NCBI RefSeq assembly: GCF_034353875.1
Contig: NZ_CP133784.1
Coordinates: forward strand, 310,001-374,000
DNA: 64,000 bases
DNA from: Pseudomonas sp. MH9.2
GTDB lineage: Bacteria > Pseudomonadota > Gammaproteobacteria > Pseudomonadales > Pseudomonadaceae
Reading direction: 5' to 3'
In this document: piece after piece, positions 54,853 to 64,000 of the stretch
Layout: each line of letters opens with the position of its first letter
How positions within the stretch are numbered: position 1 is the first letter of the stretch
Notes under the pieces: generated by a model
What the model was told of the DNA's origin: nothing
What the model saw: the letters and a program-made list of their open reading frames with translations, nothing else
Database searches by the model: none
Made by a program: the position numbers and the translations under genes

Positions 54853-56247
54853 TCAGGCCTGTGGCTGCCAGCCACCACCCAACGCCTTGTAAATGGCAAC
54901 AATTCCCCGATACATCTCGACCTCGGCCTGAGCCTGAGAATCTTCGGCGGCCAATCGCTCACGCTCGGCGTCGAGTAGCACAAGGAAGTCCACTGTGCCT
55001 TCGCGGTACTGAATAGACGCCAAGTCAGCAGCGGAACGACTCGCTTCGCTTTGACGCAACAGCGAGATCAGCCGTTGTTGCCGCTTACCATAGTCACTGA
55101 AGGCATTTTCCGACTCTTCCAGGGCCAGCAGCACCTGCTGTTCATAGGTGGCCAACGCGCCGTCGGCTTGAGCATCGGCGCCACGAATCCGTGCACGCAC
55201 GCTGCCGAGGTCAAACGCGGCCCAGGTAATGCTTGGGCCAAGCGCCCAGGCTTGCGCGGCTGATGAGCCGAGTTGCGAACCGCGTGCGGCGGTGAAGCCC
55301 AGGAACCCACTGAGGCTGACGCGTGGGAACAGGTCTGCAGTCGCGACACCGATGCGCGCCGTCGCAGCCGCCAGTTGGCGCTCGGCACTGCGCACGTCGG
55401 GACGATGGCGCAGCAGCTCAGTCGGATCGCCGATGGGCAAGGCTTTGGCGATGGCCGGCAATTTAGCCGGGCTCAGGTCGATGGTCAGGGCCTCTGGACG
55501 CTCGCCCAACAGCGTGGCGATGCGATTGCGCTGGCGCACTTGTTCTGCTTGCAGTTGCGGCACAGTGGCCTCGACGGCCGCCAGTCGTGCATCGGACCGC
55601 ACTACGTCGAGCTCATTGCCCACACCGGCTTCACGCAGGTTCACGGTAATGGTGCGCGAGTCCTCTTGGTTCTTCAGGTTGGCCCGAGCAATGCCTTCGC
55701 GCAGTTGTGCGCCGCGCAGTTGCCCGTAAGCATCGACCAACTCGGCAGTCATGGTGACCTGAAGTTGGTAAAGATTGGCTTCGGCCACCTCCTGATCGGC
55801 GGTGCTGGCTTCCAGTTCACGCTGGATCCGTCCGAACAGGTCGAGCTCCCAGGCCATGTCCAGTCCCAGGTCATAGCGCTCGGTGTTGACTCGTTGGGTC
55901 GTGGTCCCCGGTTGCTGACCTTTGCCCAGATCGCTGCTGACGCGGCTGGTGATCACCGGCATGGCATCGTTGCTGATGTCGTCGCGAATCGCACGGGCTG
56001 CGCGCAAACGGGCAAAGGCGACGCGCAATTCACGGTTGCCGGTCAATGACTGAGCCACTAGCTGGTTGAGAATAGGGTCATCGAACTGCTGCCACCAGAC
56101 GGTTTCAAGGTGACTGCGGTCGTAGTGACCTTGTGCCGCTGATTCGACCTTGGCCGGTGCGGTGTCCGGGGTTTTATAGTCCGGGCCGACGGCGCAGGCC
56201 GCGAGGGCAAGGACCAGAAGGCTCGGGAGAAAGAGTTTTACGCTCAT
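54853..56247 (-). CDS. oprN: RND efflux outer-membrane lipoprotein (OprN-like)
   Basis: A 464-residue TolC-family channel of the NodT/OprM type. A signal peptide ends in the lipobox LAAC, so Cys18 should carry lipid. Two repeats of the outer-membrane efflux domain follow (residues about 60-250 and 270-455). It forms the trimeric exit duct with the pump and adaptor encoded just upstream. Its ATG overlaps the pump gene's stop (ATGA). The OprN name rests on the operon and the mexT/mexS context. Confidence 0.93.
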   Translation of the reverse strand: MSVKLFLPSLLVLALAACAVGPDYKTPDTAPAKVESAAQGHYDRSHLETVWWQQFDDPILNQLVAQSLTGNRELRVAFARLRAARAIRDDISNDAMPVITSRVSSDLGKGQQPGTTTQRVNTERYDLGLDMAWELDLFGRIQRELEASTADQEVAEANLYQLQVTMTAELVDAYGQLRGAQLREGIARANLKNQEDSRTITVNLREAGVGNELDVVRSDARLAAVEATVPQLQAEQVRQRNRIATLLGERPEALTIDLSPAKLPAIAKALPIGDPTELLRHRPDVRSAERQLAAATARIGVATADLFPRVSLSGFLGFTAARGSQLGSSAAQAWALGPSITWAAFDLGSVRARIRGADAQADGALATYEQQVLLALEESENAFSDYGKRQQRLISLLRQSEASRSAADLASIQYREGTVDFLVLLDAERERLAAEDSQAQAEVEMYRGIVAIYKALGGGWQPQA

Positions 56248-59200
56248 TGTTGCGCCTCCAGCGTCAGGGCCTTGTCAGCGTTGCGAGCCTGCTTGCGTCC
56301 CACATAGTTACGGATCAATACGTAGAACACCGGTGTCAGCAGCAGGCCGAAGAAGGTCACCCCGAGCATCCCGGAGAACACCGCCACGCCCATGGCATGA
56401 CGCATCTCTGCACCGGCACCGCTGGACAAGACCAGAGGCACAACACCCATGATGAACGCGAAGGAGGTCATCAGGATTGGACGCAGACGCAGACGGCACG
56501 CTTCGAGTACCGCAGCCAGCGGGGTCATACCTTCATCTTGTTTGTCTTTGGCAAACTCGACGATCAGGATCGCGTTCTTACACGCCAGGCCCACCAATAC
56601 GATCAAGCCAATCTGGGTGAAAATGTTGTTGTCGCTACCGGCAATGATCACCCCGACGATGGCTGACAGCAGCGTCATCGGTACGATCAGAATCACCGCC
56701 AGAGGCAGGCTCCAGCTTTCATACAGCGCGGCCAACACCAGGAACGCCAGCAGCACACAGAGCGGAAACACCAGCAGTGCAGTGTTGCCGGACAAAATCT
56801 GCTGATACGTCAGGTCAGTCCACTCGTAGGTCATGCCGTTGGGCAGTTCTTCCTTGAGCAGTTTTTCAACGGCGCTCTGCGCTTGCCCGGAGCTGTAGCC
56901 GGGCGCGGCTGCACCGTTGATTTCAGCCGTGATGAAGCCGTTATAGTGCATGACGCGATCAGGCCCTGAGGTATCGCTGACCTTGATGAACGTCGCCAGG
57001 GGGATCATTTCGCCCACGTTGTTGCGCACTTTCAGTTGACCGATCTGCTCAGCCTCCAGACGGAATTGTTGTTCAGCCTGAACGTTGACTTGATAGGTAC
57101 GGCCAAAACGGTTGAAGTCGTTGGCATACAACGAACCCAGATAGACTTGCAGGGTGTCGAAGATGTCCGAGATAGCTACACCGTGGGTTTTAGCCTTTTC
57201 ACGGTCGATAGCGGCATCGACCTGTGGCACGTTGACCGTGTAGCTGGTGAATAACCCGGCCAGTTCAGGCACGCCATGGCTCTTGTTGATGACGTTCTGG
57301 GTTTCTTTGTACAGCTCTTCGTAACCCAGGTTGCCACGGTCTTCGATTTGCAAGCGGAAGCCGCCAATAGTGCCGAGTCCCTGCACCGGTGGTGGCGGGA
57401 AGATCGCCATGTAGGCTTCCTGGATCACACCGAACTTACCGTTCAAGGCACCGGCAATCGCGCCCGCCGATTCGCTCTTGTCCTTGCGCTCGTCGAATGG
57501 CTTCAAGGTCACGAAGACGATGCCCGCGTTAGGGCTGTTGGTGAAGCCGTTGATCGACAGGCCAGGGAAGGCGACCGCACTTTCTACACCAGGCTGTTTG
57601 AGCGCGATGTCAGACATGCGTTTGATCACATCTTCGGTACGGTCCAGGCTTGACGCATCCGGCAGTTGAGCAAAGGCCACCAGATACTGTTTGTCTTGTG
57701 CAGGCACGAAACCGGTCGGCGTGTTGGCGAAGCCGAACCAGGTCATCACGATCAAACCCGCGTAGACAAACAAGGCGATGCCGCTGCCACGGATAACCCG
57801 GCCTACGGTTCCTACATAGCCACGGCTGGCTTTGTCGAAGAATCTGTTGAACGGCCGGAACAACCAGACACCGAACAATTTATCGAGAAATCTGGAAAAG
57901 GCATCCTTCGGCGCATCGTGGCTTCTAAGTAACACGGCGGCCAGGGCTGGCGACAAGGTCAAGGAGTTGAACGCGGAGATCACTGTAGAGATCGCAATCG
58001 TCAGGGCGAACTGTTTATAGAACTGCCCGGTCAACCCGGAGATGAATCCCGCCGGGATGAACACTGCGCACAACACCAGCGCGGTGGCGATGATCGGTCC
58101 GGTGACTTCACGCATGGCGCGTTTGGTCGCTTCGACCGGCGTCAGTCCCAGCTCGATATTACGTTCGACGTTCTCCACCACGACGATGGCATCGTCTACC
58201 ACGATACCAATGGCCAGTACCAATCCGAACAGCGACAGCGCATTGAGCGAGAAACCGAACATGTGCATCACGGCAAAGGTGCCGATCAGTGAGACCGGAA
58301 CAGCCACCAATGGAATGATCGAGGCGCGCCAGGTCTGCAGGAACAGGATCACCACGAGCACGACCAGGATCAGTGCTTCGAACAGCGTGTGGACCACTGC
58401 TTCGATGGAGCCGCGGACGAAGATCGTCGGGTCATAGACAATCGAGAAGTCCATGCCTTCCGGGAAGTTCTTCTTCAGTTCGGCCATTTTGGCGCGAACT
58501 TCGTTGGAGATATCGATGGCATTGGAGCCGGGGCGCTGGAAGATCGGGATAGCCACCGCAGGCTGGTTATTCAGCAGAGAACGTAATGCATACTGGCTGG
58601 AGCCAAGCTCGATCCGCGCAATGTCCTTGAGGCGAGTGATTTCCCCTCCGGCGCCGGAGCGGATAATGATGTTTTCGAACTCTTCCTCACTGACCAGGCG
58701 ACCCTGAGTATTCACCGACATCTGGAAGCTGGTGGCACCCGGCGCAGGTGGCGAACCAAGGGACCCGGCAGCGACCTGACGGTTCTGTTCACGTATCGCA
58801 GCCACGACGTCGGTCGCGGTCAGGTTGCGTGAAGCGACCTTGTTCGGATCAAGCCAGACACGTAGCGAATAGTCGCCCATACCAAACAGTTGGACATCAC
58901 CGACACCGCCCAGACGCGCCAATTCATCCTTGATATTGAGCAAGGCATAGTTGGACAGGTAGAGCATGTCGTAGCGTTTGTCCGGCGAGGTCAAGTGCAC
59001 GACCATGGTCAGGTCGGGGGATGCCTTGTCCACGGTGATACCAATGCGCGTCACTTCTTCGGGCAGTTTGGGGGTGGTCCGGGTCACACGGTTTTGCACC
59101 TGCACCTGAGCGTTGTCCAGGTCAGTACCCAGGGCGAAGGTGATGGTCAGGGTGATTTTGCCGTCAGCGGTGGACTGCGAGGACATGTAAAGCATGTTCT

Positions 59201-59423
59201 CGACGCCGGTGATCGCCTGTTCCAGCGGTGCAGCCACGGTTTCACCGATGACCTTAGGGTTGGCACCCGGGAAGTTTGCACGCACCACGACGGTGGGGGG
59301 CACGACTTCCGGGTATTCACTGATCGGCAGCTGGAACAGTGAAATCGCGCCTGCGATCAGGATCAGCAGTGATAACACCGCTGCAAAGATCGGCCGCGTA
59401 ATAAAGAATTGAGAGAAGTTCAT
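56244..59423 (-). CDS. mexF: RND multidrug efflux pump (MexF-like)
   Basis: A 1059-residue inner-membrane proton-driven exporter with 12 membrane segments and two large periplasmic loops, typical of the HAE1 family. Visible are the N-terminal FFITRPIFAAVLSLLILIAG, the conserved VVDDAIVVVENVERN region of TM4 with the proton-relay Asp pair, and the second-half GLACKNAILIVEFAKD. Family substrates include chloramphenicol, quinolones and quorum-sensing precursors. It begins 12 bases after mexE. Confidence 0.95.
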   Translation of the reverse strand: MNFSQFFITRPIFAAVLSLLILIAGAISLFQLPISEYPEVVPPTVVVRANFPGANPKVIGETVAAPLEQAITGVENMLYMSSQSTADGKITLTITFALGTDLDNAQVQVQNRVTRTTPKLPEEVTRIGITVDKASPDLTMVVHLTSPDKRYDMLYLSNYALLNIKDELARLGGVGDVQLFGMGDYSLRVWLDPNKVASRNLTATDVVAAIREQNRQVAAGSLGSPPAPGATSFQMSVNTQGRLVSEEEFENIIIRSGAGGEITRLKDIARIELGSSQYALRSLLNNQPAVAIPIFQRPGSNAIDISNEVRAKMAELKKNFPEGMDFSIVYDPTIFVRGSIEAVVHTLFEALILVVLVVILFLQTWRASIIPLVAVPVSLIGTFAVMHMFGFSLNALSLFGLVLAIGIVVDDAIVVVENVERNIELGLTPVEATKRAMREVTGPIIATALVLCAVFIPAGFISGLTGQFYKQFALTIAISTVISAFNSLTLSPALAAVLLRSHDAPKDAFSRFLDKLFGVWLFRPFNRFFDKASRGYVGTVGRVIRGSGIALFVYAGLIVMTWFGFANTPTGFVPAQDKQYLVAFAQLPDASSLDRTEDVIKRMSDIALKQPGVESAVAFPGLSINGFTNSPNAGIVFVTLKPFDERKDKSESAGAIAGALNGKFGVIQEAYMAIFPPPPVQGLGTIGGFRLQIEDRGNLGYEELYKETQNVINKSHGVPELAGLFTSYTVNVPQVDAAIDREKAKTHGVAISDIFDTLQVYLGSLYANDFNRFGRTYQVNVQAEQQFRLEAEQIGQLKVRNNVGEMIPLATFIKVSDTSGPDRVMHYNGFITAEINGAAAPGYSSGQAQSAVEKLLKEELPNGMTYEWTDLTYQQILSGNTALLVFPLCVLLAFLVLAALYESWSLPLAVILIVPMTLLSAIVGVIIAGSDNNIFTQIGLIVLVGLACKNAILIVEFAKDKQDEGMTPLAAVLEACRLRLRPILMTSFAFIMGVVPLVLSSGAGAEMRHAMGVAVFSGMLGVTFFGLLLTPVFYVLIRNYVGRKQARNADKALTLEAQQ

Positions 59424-59435
59424 TATGGTTATCCC

Positions 59436-60677
59436 TTAACCGCGCGGCGAAGCAGTGCTGGCAAGTTTGGCCGCAAGCTTGGGCTCGACGGGCTTCAGGT
59501 TGCTGGCTTCGAGTGCTTGACGTTGCTTGTGCAGGGCGGCTAGGGTTTCGGCGCTGGCCATCATGGCTGTTTCAGGGTCTACCGCTTGCCCCGGGCGAAC
59601 CCGTTGCAGGCCCTTGACCACGATGGTGTCGTCTTTGCTCAGGCCGCTGCGCACAATGCGTAAACCTTCGAGTTTCGGACCGAGTTCCACGCTGCGGTAG
59701 GCCGGTTTATTGTCGGCGCCCATGACCAGCACGAATTTCTTGCCAAGATCAGTGCCGACTGCTTCGTCATTGATTAGCACGGCAGAGTAAGTACCGCTGC
59801 CTACCAGCTTGAGACGGGCGTACAAGCCCGGAGTGAATTGGCCGTCGGTGTTATCGAAAACCGCACGGCCTCGGATGGTCCCGGTTTTCGGGTTGACCTG
59901 ATTGTCGACGAAATTCATCTGGCCCTGATGCGGGTTGTCGCTTTCGTTCGACAGACCGAGGAATACCGGCGTGCTTTGGCCGCGCTGGCCTTTGCGAGCA
60001 AGCTCGGTGTATTTCAGATAAACCCGCTCATCGGCATCGAAATACGCGTAAACCTTATCGGTGGACACCACGCTTGTCAGCGGCGTGACATCCGCAGTCA
60101 CAATGTTGCCAGCGGTGATTTCGGCGCGGCTGACGCGGCCACTGATCGGCGAAGTTACGCGGGTAAAGCTCAGGTTCAACCGAGCCAGATCGAGTTGCGC
60201 CTGGATGGCATCGGCGCCGGCTTTCGCTTCTTGGGCGGCGCTGTTGCGCGAGTCGGCGAGTTCGGCGGAAATAGCATTGCTGGTCAGCAGGCGTTGGCCA
60301 CGCTGGGCTTCATTGCCACTGCGTGTCAAATTGGCGCGAGCTTGTTGCAGTTGGGCTTCGAGGCGACGAACTTCAGCCTGGAAAGGACGAGGATCGATCT
60401 GGAATAGCAGGTCGCCTTTCTTGACCAACGCACCTTCAGTGAAAGCAACTTGATCAATCTGGCCAGAAACCCGTGGGCGGATTTCAACGGTTTCCGGCGC
60501 CTCAAGGCGCCCGGTGAATTCATCCCATTCATTGACGGGCTGTTCCAGTACCTTGGCCACGGTGACTTTTGCAGCTGCCGGAGCCACAGTCGCAGCGGGA
60601 TCGCGACCACAGGCGCTGATCACGACCAAGGCCAGGGCCGCAAGAGGGTAGCGCACGTATTTGAATGACTGTGCCAT
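59436..60677 (-). CDS. mexE: RND efflux periplasmic adaptor (MexE-like)
   Basis: A 413-residue membrane-fusion protein. The signal peptide ends in the lipobox ISAC, so it should be a lipoprotein anchored at Cys23. The order is a first lipoyl half (IRPRVSGQIDQVAFTEGALV, then KKGDLLFQID), an alpha-hairpin (about 95-165), the second lipoyl half (VTSPISGRVSRAEITAGN), then beta-barrel and membrane-proximal domains. It links MexF to OprN. A MexT-box-like palindrome lies about 75-100 bases upstream. Confidence 0.95.
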   Translation of the reverse strand: MAQSFKYVRYPLAALALVVISACGRDPAATVAPAAAKVTVAKVLEQPVNEWDEFTGRLEAPETVEIRPRVSGQIDQVAFTEGALVKKGDLLFQIDPRPFQAEVRRLEAQLQQARANLTRSGNEAQRGQRLLTSNAISAELADSRNSAAQEAKAGADAIQAQLDLARLNLSFTRVTSPISGRVSRAEITAGNIVTADVTPLTSVVSTDKVYAYFDADERVYLKYTELARKGQRGQSTPVFLGLSNESDNPHQGQMNFVDNQVNPKTGTIRGRAVFDNTDGQFTPGLYARLKLVGSGTYSAVLINDEAVGTDLGKKFVLVMGADNKPAYRSVELGPKLEGLRIVRSGLSKDDTIVVKGLQRVRPGQAVDPETAMMASAETLAALHKQRQALEASNLKPVEPKLAAKLASTASPRG

Positions 60678-60795: not shown

Positions 60796-61713
60796 CTAGT
60801 TCAGGCTATCAGGGTCACCAAAGAACATCTGAATACGCGAACGCAGCCATCGTTCCCCTGGGTCATTGTCCTGGGAGCCACGCCACGCCATGTGCAGCTC
60901 AAAGCTACGCGTTTCAATCGGTACCTCTTCAGCGCGTACGCCTCCGGCGGCGGCCAGTACATCAGCGGCATAGTCCGGAACGGTCGCCACGATATCGGTA
61001 CCGGCCAGCAGCGAGGCCAAGCCATTGAACTGTGGCACGGCCAGCACAACATGACGCTTGCGCCCGATTTTTTCCAGGTACTCGTCGATAAATCCGCTTA
61101 AATCACCCGAGAACGAGACCAGGGCATGAGGCCGTGTGCAGAAGTCATCCAGGCTGAGTGGGCCTGGTACCGTGTCCGCGCGCAACAACTTGGCCCGGCT
61201 AAGGCGCAGCACTTTTCGTTTGGCATTGGCGGGCAGATCCATGGTGTAGCTGACGCCAATGGAGATTTCGCCAGAAGCGAGCATCGCGGGCATCAGGATG
61301 TAGTTGACCCGTCGTACCACCAGCACAATGCCTGGGGCCTCGGAGCGCAGACGCTTGAGCAACGAAGGCAAGAGTGCGAACTCCGCGTCGTCGGACAAGC
61401 CGATGCGGAATACGGCTGTGCTGGTTGCAGGGTCGAATTCTGCCGCACGACTGACGGCCGTGGAGATCGAGTCGAGCGCGGGGGAGAGCAGCGCGAAAAT
61501 GTCCACCGCGCGGGCAGTTGGTTCCATGCTGCGTCCGGTGCGCACGAACAAAGGATCATCGAACAGCCCGCGCAGACGTGAGAGCGCCGCACTGATCGCG
61601 GGTTGGCCCAGAAACAGTTTTTCTGCCGCACGAGTAACGCTCCGCTCATGCATCAATGTCTCGAAGACAATAAGGAGATTGAGGTCAACGCGACGCAGGT
61701 CATTGCGATTCAT
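60796..61713 (-). CDS. mexT: MexT-like LysR activator of the efflux operon
   Basis: A 305-residue LysR protein beginning MNRNDLRRVDLNLLIVFETL, the MexT/NodD-type N-terminus, with the helix-turn-helix at about residues 18-65. The effector domain spans about 90-300. It sits directly upstream of mexE on the same strand and is divergent from mexS, the same arrangement as in Pseudomonas aeruginosa. It should activate mexEF-oprN and mexS in response to redox or electrophile stress. The start at 61713 matches MexT; a longer reading from 61761 is possible. The reading frame is intact. Confidence 0.9.
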   Translation of the reverse strand: MNRNDLRRVDLNLLIVFETLMHERSVTRAAEKLFLGQPAISAALSRLRGLFDDPLFVRTGRSMEPTARAVDIFALLSPALDSISTAVSRAAEFDPATSTAVFRIGLSDDAEFALLPSLLKRLRSEAPGIVLVVRRVNYILMPAMLASGEISIGVSYTMDLPANAKRKVLRLSRAKLLRADTVPGPLSLDDFCTRPHALVSFSGDLSGFIDEYLEKIGRKRHVVLAVPQFNGLASLLAGTDIVATVPDYAADVLAAAGGVRAEEVPIETRSFELHMAWRGSQDNDPGERWLRSRIQMFFGDPDSLN

Positions 61714-62187
61714 GAAAGATGATCTCGGGCCATTTGTCGATGCGAGAGGCCATGCCAGCACTCAGGTGTGCGGCCTATCCGCTCAAACACAGTGGCTCGG
61801 ATAGGCAAACGCGACGTGAATAGTACGAGGAATCAGTAGCGTTCTGCAGTGATAAATTCAACGCCGGTACATTAATCATCAAAATCATAGTGGATCGCGA
61901 TATAAAGCGGCTGCAAGACGCAAGAAGGCGTTACACCGGGCATTATCGGGTGCCCCGCGAAAGCACTTGTTCGGTCGACGTGTACGGGTGGGTTGCAATG
62001 TCGCGATTAGGTGCGAACAATGCCCCCCATAAAAGCTGATTTTTTTGTTTTCTGCAGCCAGATTTGCGCCACACCGGCGCAGCAGAATCAATGACATGCA
62101 TGTCGACTATTAATAGCCACTGATAGTGTTCCCGGTAAAGCCCGGATAAAGTTCATGGCATTAAAGGTTCATAAGGCGAGGTTCGAA
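61714..62187. promoter_or_regulatory. mexT-mexS divergent spacer
   Basis: About 470 bases between divergent genes. No gene is supported. GTCGAC followed by AATAG at about 62102-62116 partly resembles a MexT box, but ATCA is missing, so I do not call a site. Confidence 0.4.
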
Positions 62188-63210
62188 ATGTCCCGCACGA
62201 TCCGTTTTCATCAGTTTGGTCCAGCCGAGGTCCTCAAGCTTGAGGAGCACCCTGCTGCGCTGCCAGCACCCGGTGAGGTGCAAGTGCGCGTAGAAGCGAT
62301 TGGTATCAGCTGGTATGACGTGCTCTGGCGGCAAAATCTGGCGCCATCGCACGCTCGGCTGCCCGCCGGCATGGGTCATGAAATGGCCGGTGTGGTGTCG
62401 GCAGTAGGCGAAGGGGTTGATGATTTGGCCGTGGGTGACAAGGTCGCCAGTTTTCCTGCGGTCAGTCCCAATGAATACCCGGTGTATGGCGAATTGATTG
62501 TGCTGCCACGCCTGGCCTTGACCCGTTATCCGGATGTGCTGAGCCCGATTGAAGCATGCGTTCATTACACGCCACTGCTGATGGCTTACTTTGCGTACAT
62601 CGACCTGGCACACATCAAGCCAGGGCAGACCGCGCTGGTAACCGACGCCAGTCACTGTGCCGGTCCGGCATTCGTGCAATTGGGTAAAGCCCTGGGTGCA
62701 AAGGTCATTGCTGCGACCAAATCTGCTGAACAGCGTGATTACCTGCTGTCGCTGGGCGCGGACAAAGTCATCGTCACGGAGGAACAGGACCTGTTGATGT
62801 CCGTCAACAAGTACACCGACAACCGGGGTGCCGATGTGGTGCTCGATGGTTTGGGGGGGCCGCAGATGTCGATCCTCGGCGATGTTCTGGCTCCGCGTGG
62901 CAGCTTGGTACTTTACGGTTTACAGGGCGGGAATCAGACGCCATTCCCGGCGTGTGCAGCGTTCCAGAAAAACATTCAGTTCTTTGTACATTGCCTGGGC
63001 AACTTCACCGGCAAGCCGGAGCTGGGCATCACTCAGGACGAAGCCGCCGTGCAGCGGGCGTTGCGTGACATCAACCAGCTCACGGCTGATCGGGTTTTGC
63101 TGCCGCAGCCTACGCGGGTATTTCCCTTTGCCGAGGTTGTTCAGGCTCATCGTTACATGGACGGTTGTCCCATCGGCGGTCGTGCCGTGCTGCACATCGA
63201 ACAGGTTTAA
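62188..63210 (+). CDS. mexS: MexS-like zinc-independent medium-chain oxidoreductase
   Basis: A 340-residue quinone-oxidoreductase-like member of the medium-chain dehydrogenase family. The GroES-like N-terminal half contains GHEMAGVVSAVGEGVDDLAVG and the Rossmann half starts near LVTDASHCAGPAFVQLGKAL. Cys ligands of the structural zinc site are absent. Length and divergent position to mexT match MexS, whose loss in P. aeruginosa switches on MexT and the pump, presumably because a toxic electrophile accumulates. The start at 62188 has GAGG upstream; the longer reading from 62155 is less likely. Confidence 0.87.
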   Translation: MSRTIRFHQFGPAEVLKLEEHPAALPAPGEVQVRVEAIGISWYDVLWRQNLAPSHARLPAGMGHEMAGVVSAVGEGVDDLAVGDKVASFPAVSPNEYPVYGELIVLPRLALTRYPDVLSPIEACVHYTPLLMAYFAYIDLAHIKPGQTALVTDASHCAGPAFVQLGKALGAKVIAATKSAEQRDYLLSLGADKVIVTEEQDLLMSVNKYTDNRGADVVLDGLGGPQMSILGDVLAPRGSLVLYGLQGGNQTPFPACAAFQKNIQFFVHCLGNFTGKPELGITQDEAAVQRALRDINQLTADRVLLPQPTRVFPFAEVVQAHRYMDGCPIGGRAVLHIEQV

Positions 63211-63670
63211 ATACGGACGTTTATCAACGCCACTGTGCGGGCGCCTCTCAGAGAGTGGTTGCCCTTAAGCGTTCGAACGCGTCACTGGGTAAAAATTGAA
63301 GTCTTCCCGTGACGCAAGAGGGTTTTTTTTGTTGTACCTGCTGCACACCCGGTAACGAAGTAACTTCTTGTATCACTGTGCCGTACGTTTAATGCGCTAC
63401 AACCCATCGTTATAAAATATATACACGCCGTTTAGTGTCGTTTAAATAACGCGCGTCAATCCTGCAACTGTAGATTCGACCTACAATGCACGCGTACTCA
63501 GTGGGCTCGGTAATTGCCGGTACATCACTGAAGTATTAAACACGTGTGTTTGTTATTTAGTCGCGTTTGTCAGCCTCTGAACTGCGCTGCTTTTTACTGC
63601 GTATCTGTACCTTGCAAACACCTTGGAGACATTGATAATACGTCGGTAATTATTGCTCAGGGAATGAGTC
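63211..63670. promoter_or_regulatory. Long spacer before the terminal gene pair
   Basis: About 460 bases with no supported gene. It becomes AT-rich around 63400-63450, including a TATAAAATATATAC stretch that could be a promoter -10 region. A run of eight T at 63323-63330 follows the mexS end, but I see no good stem before it. Confidence 0.4.
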
Positions 63671-63805
63671 ATGGTCGAACAACAATATTTTTCCAGCCCT
63701 TCATCGAATCAACGGCCTCAGGCCGACAGCTGGGCGGGCGTGCTTATCAGTCCACTCCGAGGGGCTGCCGATGTGGTTATTCGTCTGTCAGGTGCCGCGC
63801 TATGA
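63671..63805 (+). CDS. 44-residue ORF coupled to a PP-loop protein
   Basis: A short ORF starting at an ATG with AGGGA about 8 bases upstream, beginning MVEQQYFSSPSSNQRPQADS and ending in a hydrophobic tail (VVIRLSGAAL). Its stop overlaps the next start as ATGA, a strong sign of translational coupling. There is no signal peptide. It may be a leader that controls translation of the next gene, a small accessory protein or a peptide substrate for modification. I recognise no family. Confidence 0.55.
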   Translation: MVEQQYFSSPSSNQRPQADSWAGVLISPLRGAADVVIRLSGAAL

Positions 63806-64000
63806 GTTCTATCCATGAGCAGGCAATGAATTATGTTTACCAACAAGTATTGCAGCGCGTACTCAGTTACTTCACCCGCGCCGAGCGAACAGCGCTTCAG
63901 TTACTGATCCAGCGTTTGATCGTGGCGGCCGGGGGAATTGAACGCATCGGAAGTTTCAAAGTAATGATCGCGTTCGGCGGCGGTAAAGACAGCGCCTACA
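63802..64000 (+). CDS. PP-loop ATPase-like protein, N-terminal part (runs off the window)
   Basis: The first 66 codons are present. An N-terminal helical region (residues 1-50, with LQRVLSYFTRAERTALQLLI) leads into MIAFGGGKDSAY at 55-66. GGGKDS matches the SGG-x-DS pyrophosphate-binding loop of N-type ATP pyrophosphatases, the fold used by amide, thiol and nucleotide-modifying enzymes. The first Ser is replaced by Gly. The protein is translated from an ATG overlapping the stop of the 44-residue ORF. The long N-terminal helical region is unusual for tRNA-modifying PP-loop enzymes, which suggests a specialised, perhaps biosynthetic, role. The rest is outside the window. Confidence 0.75.
   Translation, partial: MSSIHEQAMNYVYQQVLQRVLSYFTRAERTALQLLIQRLIVAAGGIERIGSFKVMIAFGGGKDSAY

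Follow-up and report, generated by a model that had tools for sequence, protein, structure and literature searches.

Gene content of the locus

The window analysed here, a 64-kb stretch of DNA (C1:310001-374000) of a one-contig genome of 5.58 Mb, ends within the gene for a PP-loop protein, which we call PPL, and the sequence past the window end was also read. Of the named relatives found, Pseudomonas sp. UMAB-08 stands closest (98%). Genes for MexE, an RND permease, an outer-membrane channel, a LysR regulator and an oxidoreductase are arranged in the order expected of mexT-mexS-mexEF-oprN (Table 1). They are followed by a short leader ORF, whose TGA stop, inside CTATGAG, overlaps the ATG of PPL at 63802.

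Table 1. Features at the right-hand end of the window.
Feature	Position	Strand	Basis and remarks
Sigma-70-like promoter, TTGCAA (63612-63617), 16 nt, GATAAT (63634-63639)	63612..63639	+	Sequence
Hairpin CTC-AGGGAAT-GAG, whose loop holds the leader Shine-Dalgarno; candidate site for RsmA/RsmE (CsrA family)	63656..63668	+	Fold of 63645-63690; motif in relatives
Leader ORF, ATG, 44 codons, AGGGA just 5'	63671..63805	+	Sequence, ORF list
PPL (PP-loop protein, 498 aa), first part	63802..64000	+	Whole gene G000:C1:373802-375298
MexS-like quinone/alcohol oxidoreductase	62155..63210	+	Pfam/NCBIfam families; name by position; alternative start ATG at 62188
MexT-like LysR regulator	60796..61761	-	Pfam and LysR-oxidoreductase-PPL order at related loci; name by position
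mexE	59436..60677	-	NCBIfam equivalog NF045904, 739.8 bits, cut-off 714
mexF-like RND permease	56244..59423	-	Name by position
oprN-like outer-membrane channel	54853..56247	-	Name by position

The original prediction had described a 44-codon ORF with a ribosome site (AGGGA) and a stop overlapping the next start (ATGA), followed by an uncharacterised protein with a GGGKDS PP-loop and adjoining an efflux block, and had suggested the head of a biosynthetic operon. The layout is indeed present in the sequence, all scored motifs of the PP-loop protein are intact, the protein has no family match, and the efflux block is mexEF-oprN, with MexE above the NCBIfam cut-off. The operon, on the other hand, was not found at this locus. 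PPL is followed after about 110 nt by a gene for a MocR-type regulator (GntR plus aminotransferase) and then by genes for a DinG-like helicase and a phosphoglucomutase, so no biosynthetic operon is hidden among the genes read past the window end. Likewise, no peptide-modifying or export genes were found immediately 3' of PPL.

Fold and family of PPL

In N-type PP-loop ATP pyrophosphatases, strand 1 of the ATP-binding domain leads into a characteristic SGGxDS or GGGKDS loop, and in PPL this loop reads IAFGGGKDSAY. An AF2 model (mean pLDDT 80.2) places helices at residues 3-21, 26-43, and 46-51 before the first strand, so the helical region of about 50 residues noted earlier is real. Searches with PPL gave no Pfam, NCBIfam or PDB sequence match. 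In the structural comparison PP-loop folds ranked at the top of the list, with several subfamilies (amidotransferase, thiolase, FAD synthase) scoring alike, and Foldseek returned nothing at an E-value of 0.001 or better. Compared with the N-acetyl sugar amidotransferase (8wex), the FAD synthase (8ron) and the NcsA/TtuA thiolases, PPL shows no detected sequence relation, has a C-terminal helical domain of its own that gave no fold match, and no longer keeps its active site in most of the members examined.

From its motifs and fold, PPL of this genome appears to have the active site of an ATP pyrophosphatase in full. Its probable reaction is the adenylation of a small substrate, which would then be amidated or thiolated. 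PPL was detected in one of 274 genomes of the class, namely the genome under study, and in 12 of 148 genomes of the family, two of them outside the genus; by this sequence survey the family is nearly genus-restricted.

Loss of the active site in relatives

To compare relatives, 149 loci were drawn from the PPL matches listed, to which the set is confined. Three were dropped, two with products below 420 aa (L147, L233) and one (L033) at the same place as L136, leaving 146 members, of which 140 lie at the mexS place and six are paralogues. Among these listed matches, mexS is found 5' of PPL in 139 of the 140 loci. Four motifs (GGxDS, CxxC (168/171), GDSxxEQ, and ESDCANP) were scored with our own patterns.

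In the alignment of 147 members, which includes one duplicate paralogue, 25 carry all motifs, 10 all but an altered third one, 107 none, and four are mixed; one more (L031), whose frame is without the PP-loop part, was scored as intact on its remaining motifs. Thus, among the matches listed, all four motifs, the PP-loop included, are lost in 107 of the 146 members. Besides our genome, members of the P. syringae and gingeri groups have intact motifs, as do the six paralogues. On quick trees built without the motif columns and rooted on the paralogues, the fewest changes of state were two (four if mixed members are counted as intact), or one without five long-branch members, and a single lost clade was not rejected (p-AU 0.22). 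GGxDS alone requires four changes, or two without the same five members. Two mixed members keep GGKDS without CxxC, which suggests a stepwise decay of the active site.

The lost members have open frames, and their pN/pS is 0.23 in one aligned group, the other groups having been compared without alignment; PPL without its active site is under purifying selection. When lost members are compared with each other, similarity is 73% in the N-terminal helices and 43% in what used to be the CxxC-GDSxxEQ region; among the six paralogues this second region is 95% alike. Judging from its motifs, the enzyme thus seems to have turned into a pseudoenzyme in the majority of the pseudomonads examined. Against this stands the PP-loop/sheet region, whose similarity among the lost members (61%) equals that of the C-terminal core (60%).

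A PPL paralogue in a metabolite-type cluster

Among the matches listed, six genomes (L136-L141) carry an intact PPL copy with 52-54% identity to PPL. The cluster was annotated in L141 (L141:3087-14728) and its layout compared in L139-L141. It contains genes for an AsnA-like ligase, a luciferase-like monooxygenase, the S and E subunits of glutamate mutase, two ATP-grasp proteins, PanB and an MFS transporter. The paralogues resemble the mexS locus in having intact motifs and a related MocR gene nearby, which is divergent and whose product is 47-54% identical to the MocR of our locus; this suggests that PPL and MocR travel together. They differ in being embedded among biosynthetic genes and in lacking the leader hairpin. 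The cluster fits, by analogy, an adenylating biosynthetic role for intact PPL. The biosynthetic genes anticipated by the original prediction, ATP-grasp and transporter genes among them, are therefore present beside the paralogue in six genomes and absent beside PPL itself. A literature search found no description of this cluster. A protein of the paralogue type was also noticed in L274, where the paralogue itself is all that lies in view.

A conserved promoter and hairpin before the leader

The 140 loci at the mexS place were searched with the pattern CTCANGGANNGAG, in which loop position 2 was left free. Among the matches listed, the hairpin motif CUC-ARGGANN-GAG was found in 110 of the 140 loci and in none of the six paralogues; the 110 comprise 27 of the 29 loci whose PPL is intact, 80 of the 107 whose PPL is degenerate and three of the four mixed ones. 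In the 110 loci, loop position 2 is always a purine (A in 92 loci, G in the other 18); a purine at this position is also required by a Shine-Dalgarno sequence. An ATG follows two nt past the hairpin in 104 of the 110, and GATAAT lies 22-24 nt 5' of it in 105. As for the 30 loci without the motif, L027 keeps the stem as CUC/GGG through a G-U pair, and in L144-L146, which form one clade, the stem is rewritten as CGC-AAGGA-GCG with an exact AAGGA pentaloop at an unchanged distance from GATAAT. Nine related loci retain the promoter and AAGGA with the stem gone, and the start device is absent from the other 17. Even by a relaxed count, 26 of the 140 loci have no such hairpin. The rewritten hairpin of L144, L145, and L146 lies at about -240 from PPL.

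In 75 fluorescens-type leaders, which were chosen for carrying the motif, RNAalifold (542 columns) predicted the hairpin as the sole structure, at -1.2 kcal/mol. The hairpin of our genome (63645-63690) is not unusually stable (z -0.92). Since CUC/GAG is nearly invariant and was fixed by the search, covariation is slight. The same alignment shows further conserved islands, TTCTTTATT..., GTnGGannnTGTcgGAnntTTCCTAGGA, and GTGCTAGCATTT, in the stretch that runs from the leader start to PPL; they may mark a MocR operator or another promoter.

The pattern followed by ATG gave 49 matches in 59 genomes, 35 of them at the PPL leader by coordinates, and one match with the reversed control; in our genome it was found at the PPL leader alone. 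Five of the 14 matches elsewhere (L248, L256, L283, L286, L289) open long, similar ORFs, and a ToxA_N domain was present in all three of these that were scanned (L256, L286, L289), which makes ORFs of this type another candidate family of Rsm-controlled genes. One further match opens a SnoaL-like ORF.

The leader peptide is not conserved

The behaviour of the leader as a coding sequence was assessed by pN/pS, pooled and uncorrected, from related sequences. For 21 leaders of equal length the value was 0.83 (0.87 without the first three codons) and in the wrong frames 0.90 and 0.81; for PPL in 15 of those 21 loci, where PPL is of one length, it was 0.21. Similarly, 15 leaders of 82 codons gave 0.88 in frame and 0.80 and 0.74 out of frame, and PPL of the same loci 0.23. 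Between our genome and UMAB-08, 489 of 498 residues are the same in PPL and 34 of 44 in the leader, as are 47 of the 48 nt from the -10 box to the ATG.

A separate set of 81 loci, consisting of 80 named relatives and our locus, contained the strict motif with a start codon in 79. Here both the length and the sequence of the leader vary between clades behind the same type of start signal. In the 110 hairpin loci at the mexS place, the ORFs after the hairpin are mostly 20-90 codons long, one being a single codon. A protein search with the 44-mer returned nothing except an identical sequence, which came without a source. A conserved precursor peptide beside the enzyme, as in RiPP-type systems, was thus not found, and the leader appears to evolve like non-coding sequence, so that a peptide gene is not supported. 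The layout itself is more than a chance arrangement: the majority of relatives have the start signal and some of them the overlap as well, but the peptide sequence does not recur.

Candidate Rsm control and translational coupling

Targets of CsrA/Rsm proteins are recognised by A(N)GGA in the loop of a hairpin that covers the ribosome site. The PPL leader shares this feature with the Pseudomonas RsmA/RsmE targets hcnA, aprA, and massAR, and pltA is likewise such a hairpin target. It differs from hcnA, aprA, and massAR in having two nt past GGA (CANGGANNG) and in that the controlled start codon is that of a short leader ORF. The motif of a published scan, CANGGANG, would miss the PPL leader because of these two nt (PMC4353343). 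The optimal loop for RsmE-type proteins is the hexaloop ANGGAX, and AGGGA and AAGGA pentaloops are also stated to bind RsmE well (PMC4005645, citing Lapouge 2013); the PPL leader offers a loop of 7 nt or a pentaloop closed by A-U. Three CsrA-family genes and RsmZ are encoded in our genome. PP_2828 goes unmentioned in the main text of the paper on Rsm targets in P. putida.

Repression of iraD by CsrA in E. coli works through an ORF of 27 codons, whose stop lies over the iraD start and whose Shine-Dalgarno lies over a CsrA site (PMC5574718). The PPL leader has the same architecture: a short ORF ends across the start codon of the main gene and has a GGA site over its own Shine-Dalgarno, with a CsrA-family protein as the presumed switch, and we therefore infer an Rsm-gated translation that is coupled to PPL. 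The two systems differ in that gene and genus are unrelated, in that the PPL leader shows one site near its presumed 5' end and iraD four, and in that the coupling is kept in part of the genus and Rsm binding is a prediction for PPL. Among the matches listed that have a leader, stop and start overlap in 14 of the 27 loci with intact PPL, in none of the 80 with degenerate PPL and in none of the three mixed ones, and in the 81-locus set the overlap is found in 38 of 79; tight coupling of leader and PPL is clade-limited. In degenerate loci the leader ends, by the lengths listed, 99-307 nt 5' of PPL, so Rsm control, if it acts, would need a different route to PPL, or a second promoter is used.

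By analogy with these systems, transcription would start just past GATAAT, and the hairpin would be the first structure of the mRNA, with the leader Shine-Dalgarno in its loop; many species also have part of the start codon paired in a lower stem. RsmA/RsmE-type protein bound to the hairpin would block translation of the leader, and RsmZ-type sRNAs would titrate the protein away and let ribosomes translate it. In the clade of our genome, ribosomes would then restart at the overlapping ATGA, so that PPL is made by coupling in vivo.

We hold with slightly better than even confidence that the 44-codon ORF is a regulatory leader with an Rsm hairpin and coupling to PPL, and that PPL is an enzyme here and a pseudoenzyme in most pseudomonads. 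It is very improbable that the ORF instead encodes a precursor or carrier peptide modified by the PP-loop enzyme in a RiPP- or PEARL-like manner. Such a peptide would suit the coupling to an intact adenylating-type enzyme and the similar first residues that recur in some leaders, but leader sequence and length are unconserved, pN/pS is the same as out of frame, and 10 of the 44 residues differ from a strain with a 98%-identical PPL. Furthermore, the paralogues in the biosynthetic cluster have no leader hairpin, modifying and export genes are absent directly 3', and the 44-mer matched just its identical sequence. The hairpin might also act without Rsm, either as an operator at the DNA level or as a ribosome site with little structure, with the leader coupling translation or tuning mRNA stability. 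We regard this as possible, if rather unlikely: AAGGA and AGGGA are normal Shine-Dalgarno sequences, the spacing to GATAAT is nearly fixed, as for an operator or a +1 region, CUC/GAG is nearly invariant, the predicted energies are weak, and nine related loci have promoter and AAGGA without a stem. However, a different stem surrounds AAGGA in L144-L146, G-U maintains the stem in L027, RNAalifold recovers the hairpin, and the pattern precedes other ORFs as well (14 matches), compared with one control match of any kind.

As to the protein, degenerate PPLs could still catalyse with a rebuilt site, as their open frames under selection and the 61% alikeness of their PP-loop/sheet region would allow, or the intact form could be an ordinary tRNA or sulfur enzyme, given that the structural list includes hits to NcsA/TtuA thiolases and to TilS. 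Both appear unlikely, since P-loop, CxxC, GDSxxEQ, and ESDCANP are all missing in 107 of 146 members, and the family has no family match and is almost confined to one genus, unlike tRNA and sulfur housekeeping genes.

Association with MexS, MexT and MocR

A multidrug efflux pump is switched by MexS and MexT, both of which have been studied intensively. If the active site is lost as the motifs indicate, degenerate PPL is presumably a binding or regulatory partner linked to the adjoining mexS/mexT and MocR genes. More tentatively, and with considerable doubt on our part, we propose a near genus-wide passage from enzyme to regulator, in which PPL, kin to the enzyme of a metabolite cluster, was set by mexS-mexT under an Rsm hairpin, lost its site once or several times through intermediates, kept its N-terminal helices and C-terminal domain, and now serves, in most pseudomonads, as an Rsm-gated partner in the MexS/MexT/MocR circuit. 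When turB was deleted in P. putida KT2440, PP_2827 (mexS), PP_2828, mexE, mexF, and oprN rose together (PMC7273181); PP_2827 is mexS (PMC7697342), and PP_2828 is taken as the PPL orthologue by position only. How MexS acts on MexT is not known according to the same source (PMC7697342). PPL, kept beside mexS and mexT in most of the genus, behind a probable Gac/Rsm switch and with its site lost in most species examined, is a candidate for the missing part. Its leader would in turn represent a class of Rsm targets, an unannotated short ORF with a CANGGANNG loop, that a published motif scan would overlook.

Among the matches listed, and in stretches of limited length, a MocR gene lies 3' of PPL on the same strand in 25 of the 29 intact loci, 89 of the 107 lost ones and three of the four mixed ones. 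The lysine that we presume, from the aminotransferase fold, to bind PLP is replaced in seven of the 25 MocR proteins at intact loci, in nine of the 89 at lost loci and in all three at mixed loci, and the Asp presumed on the same grounds to bind PLP is kept in all. Some PPL-linked MocR proteins may thus not bind PLP as usual.
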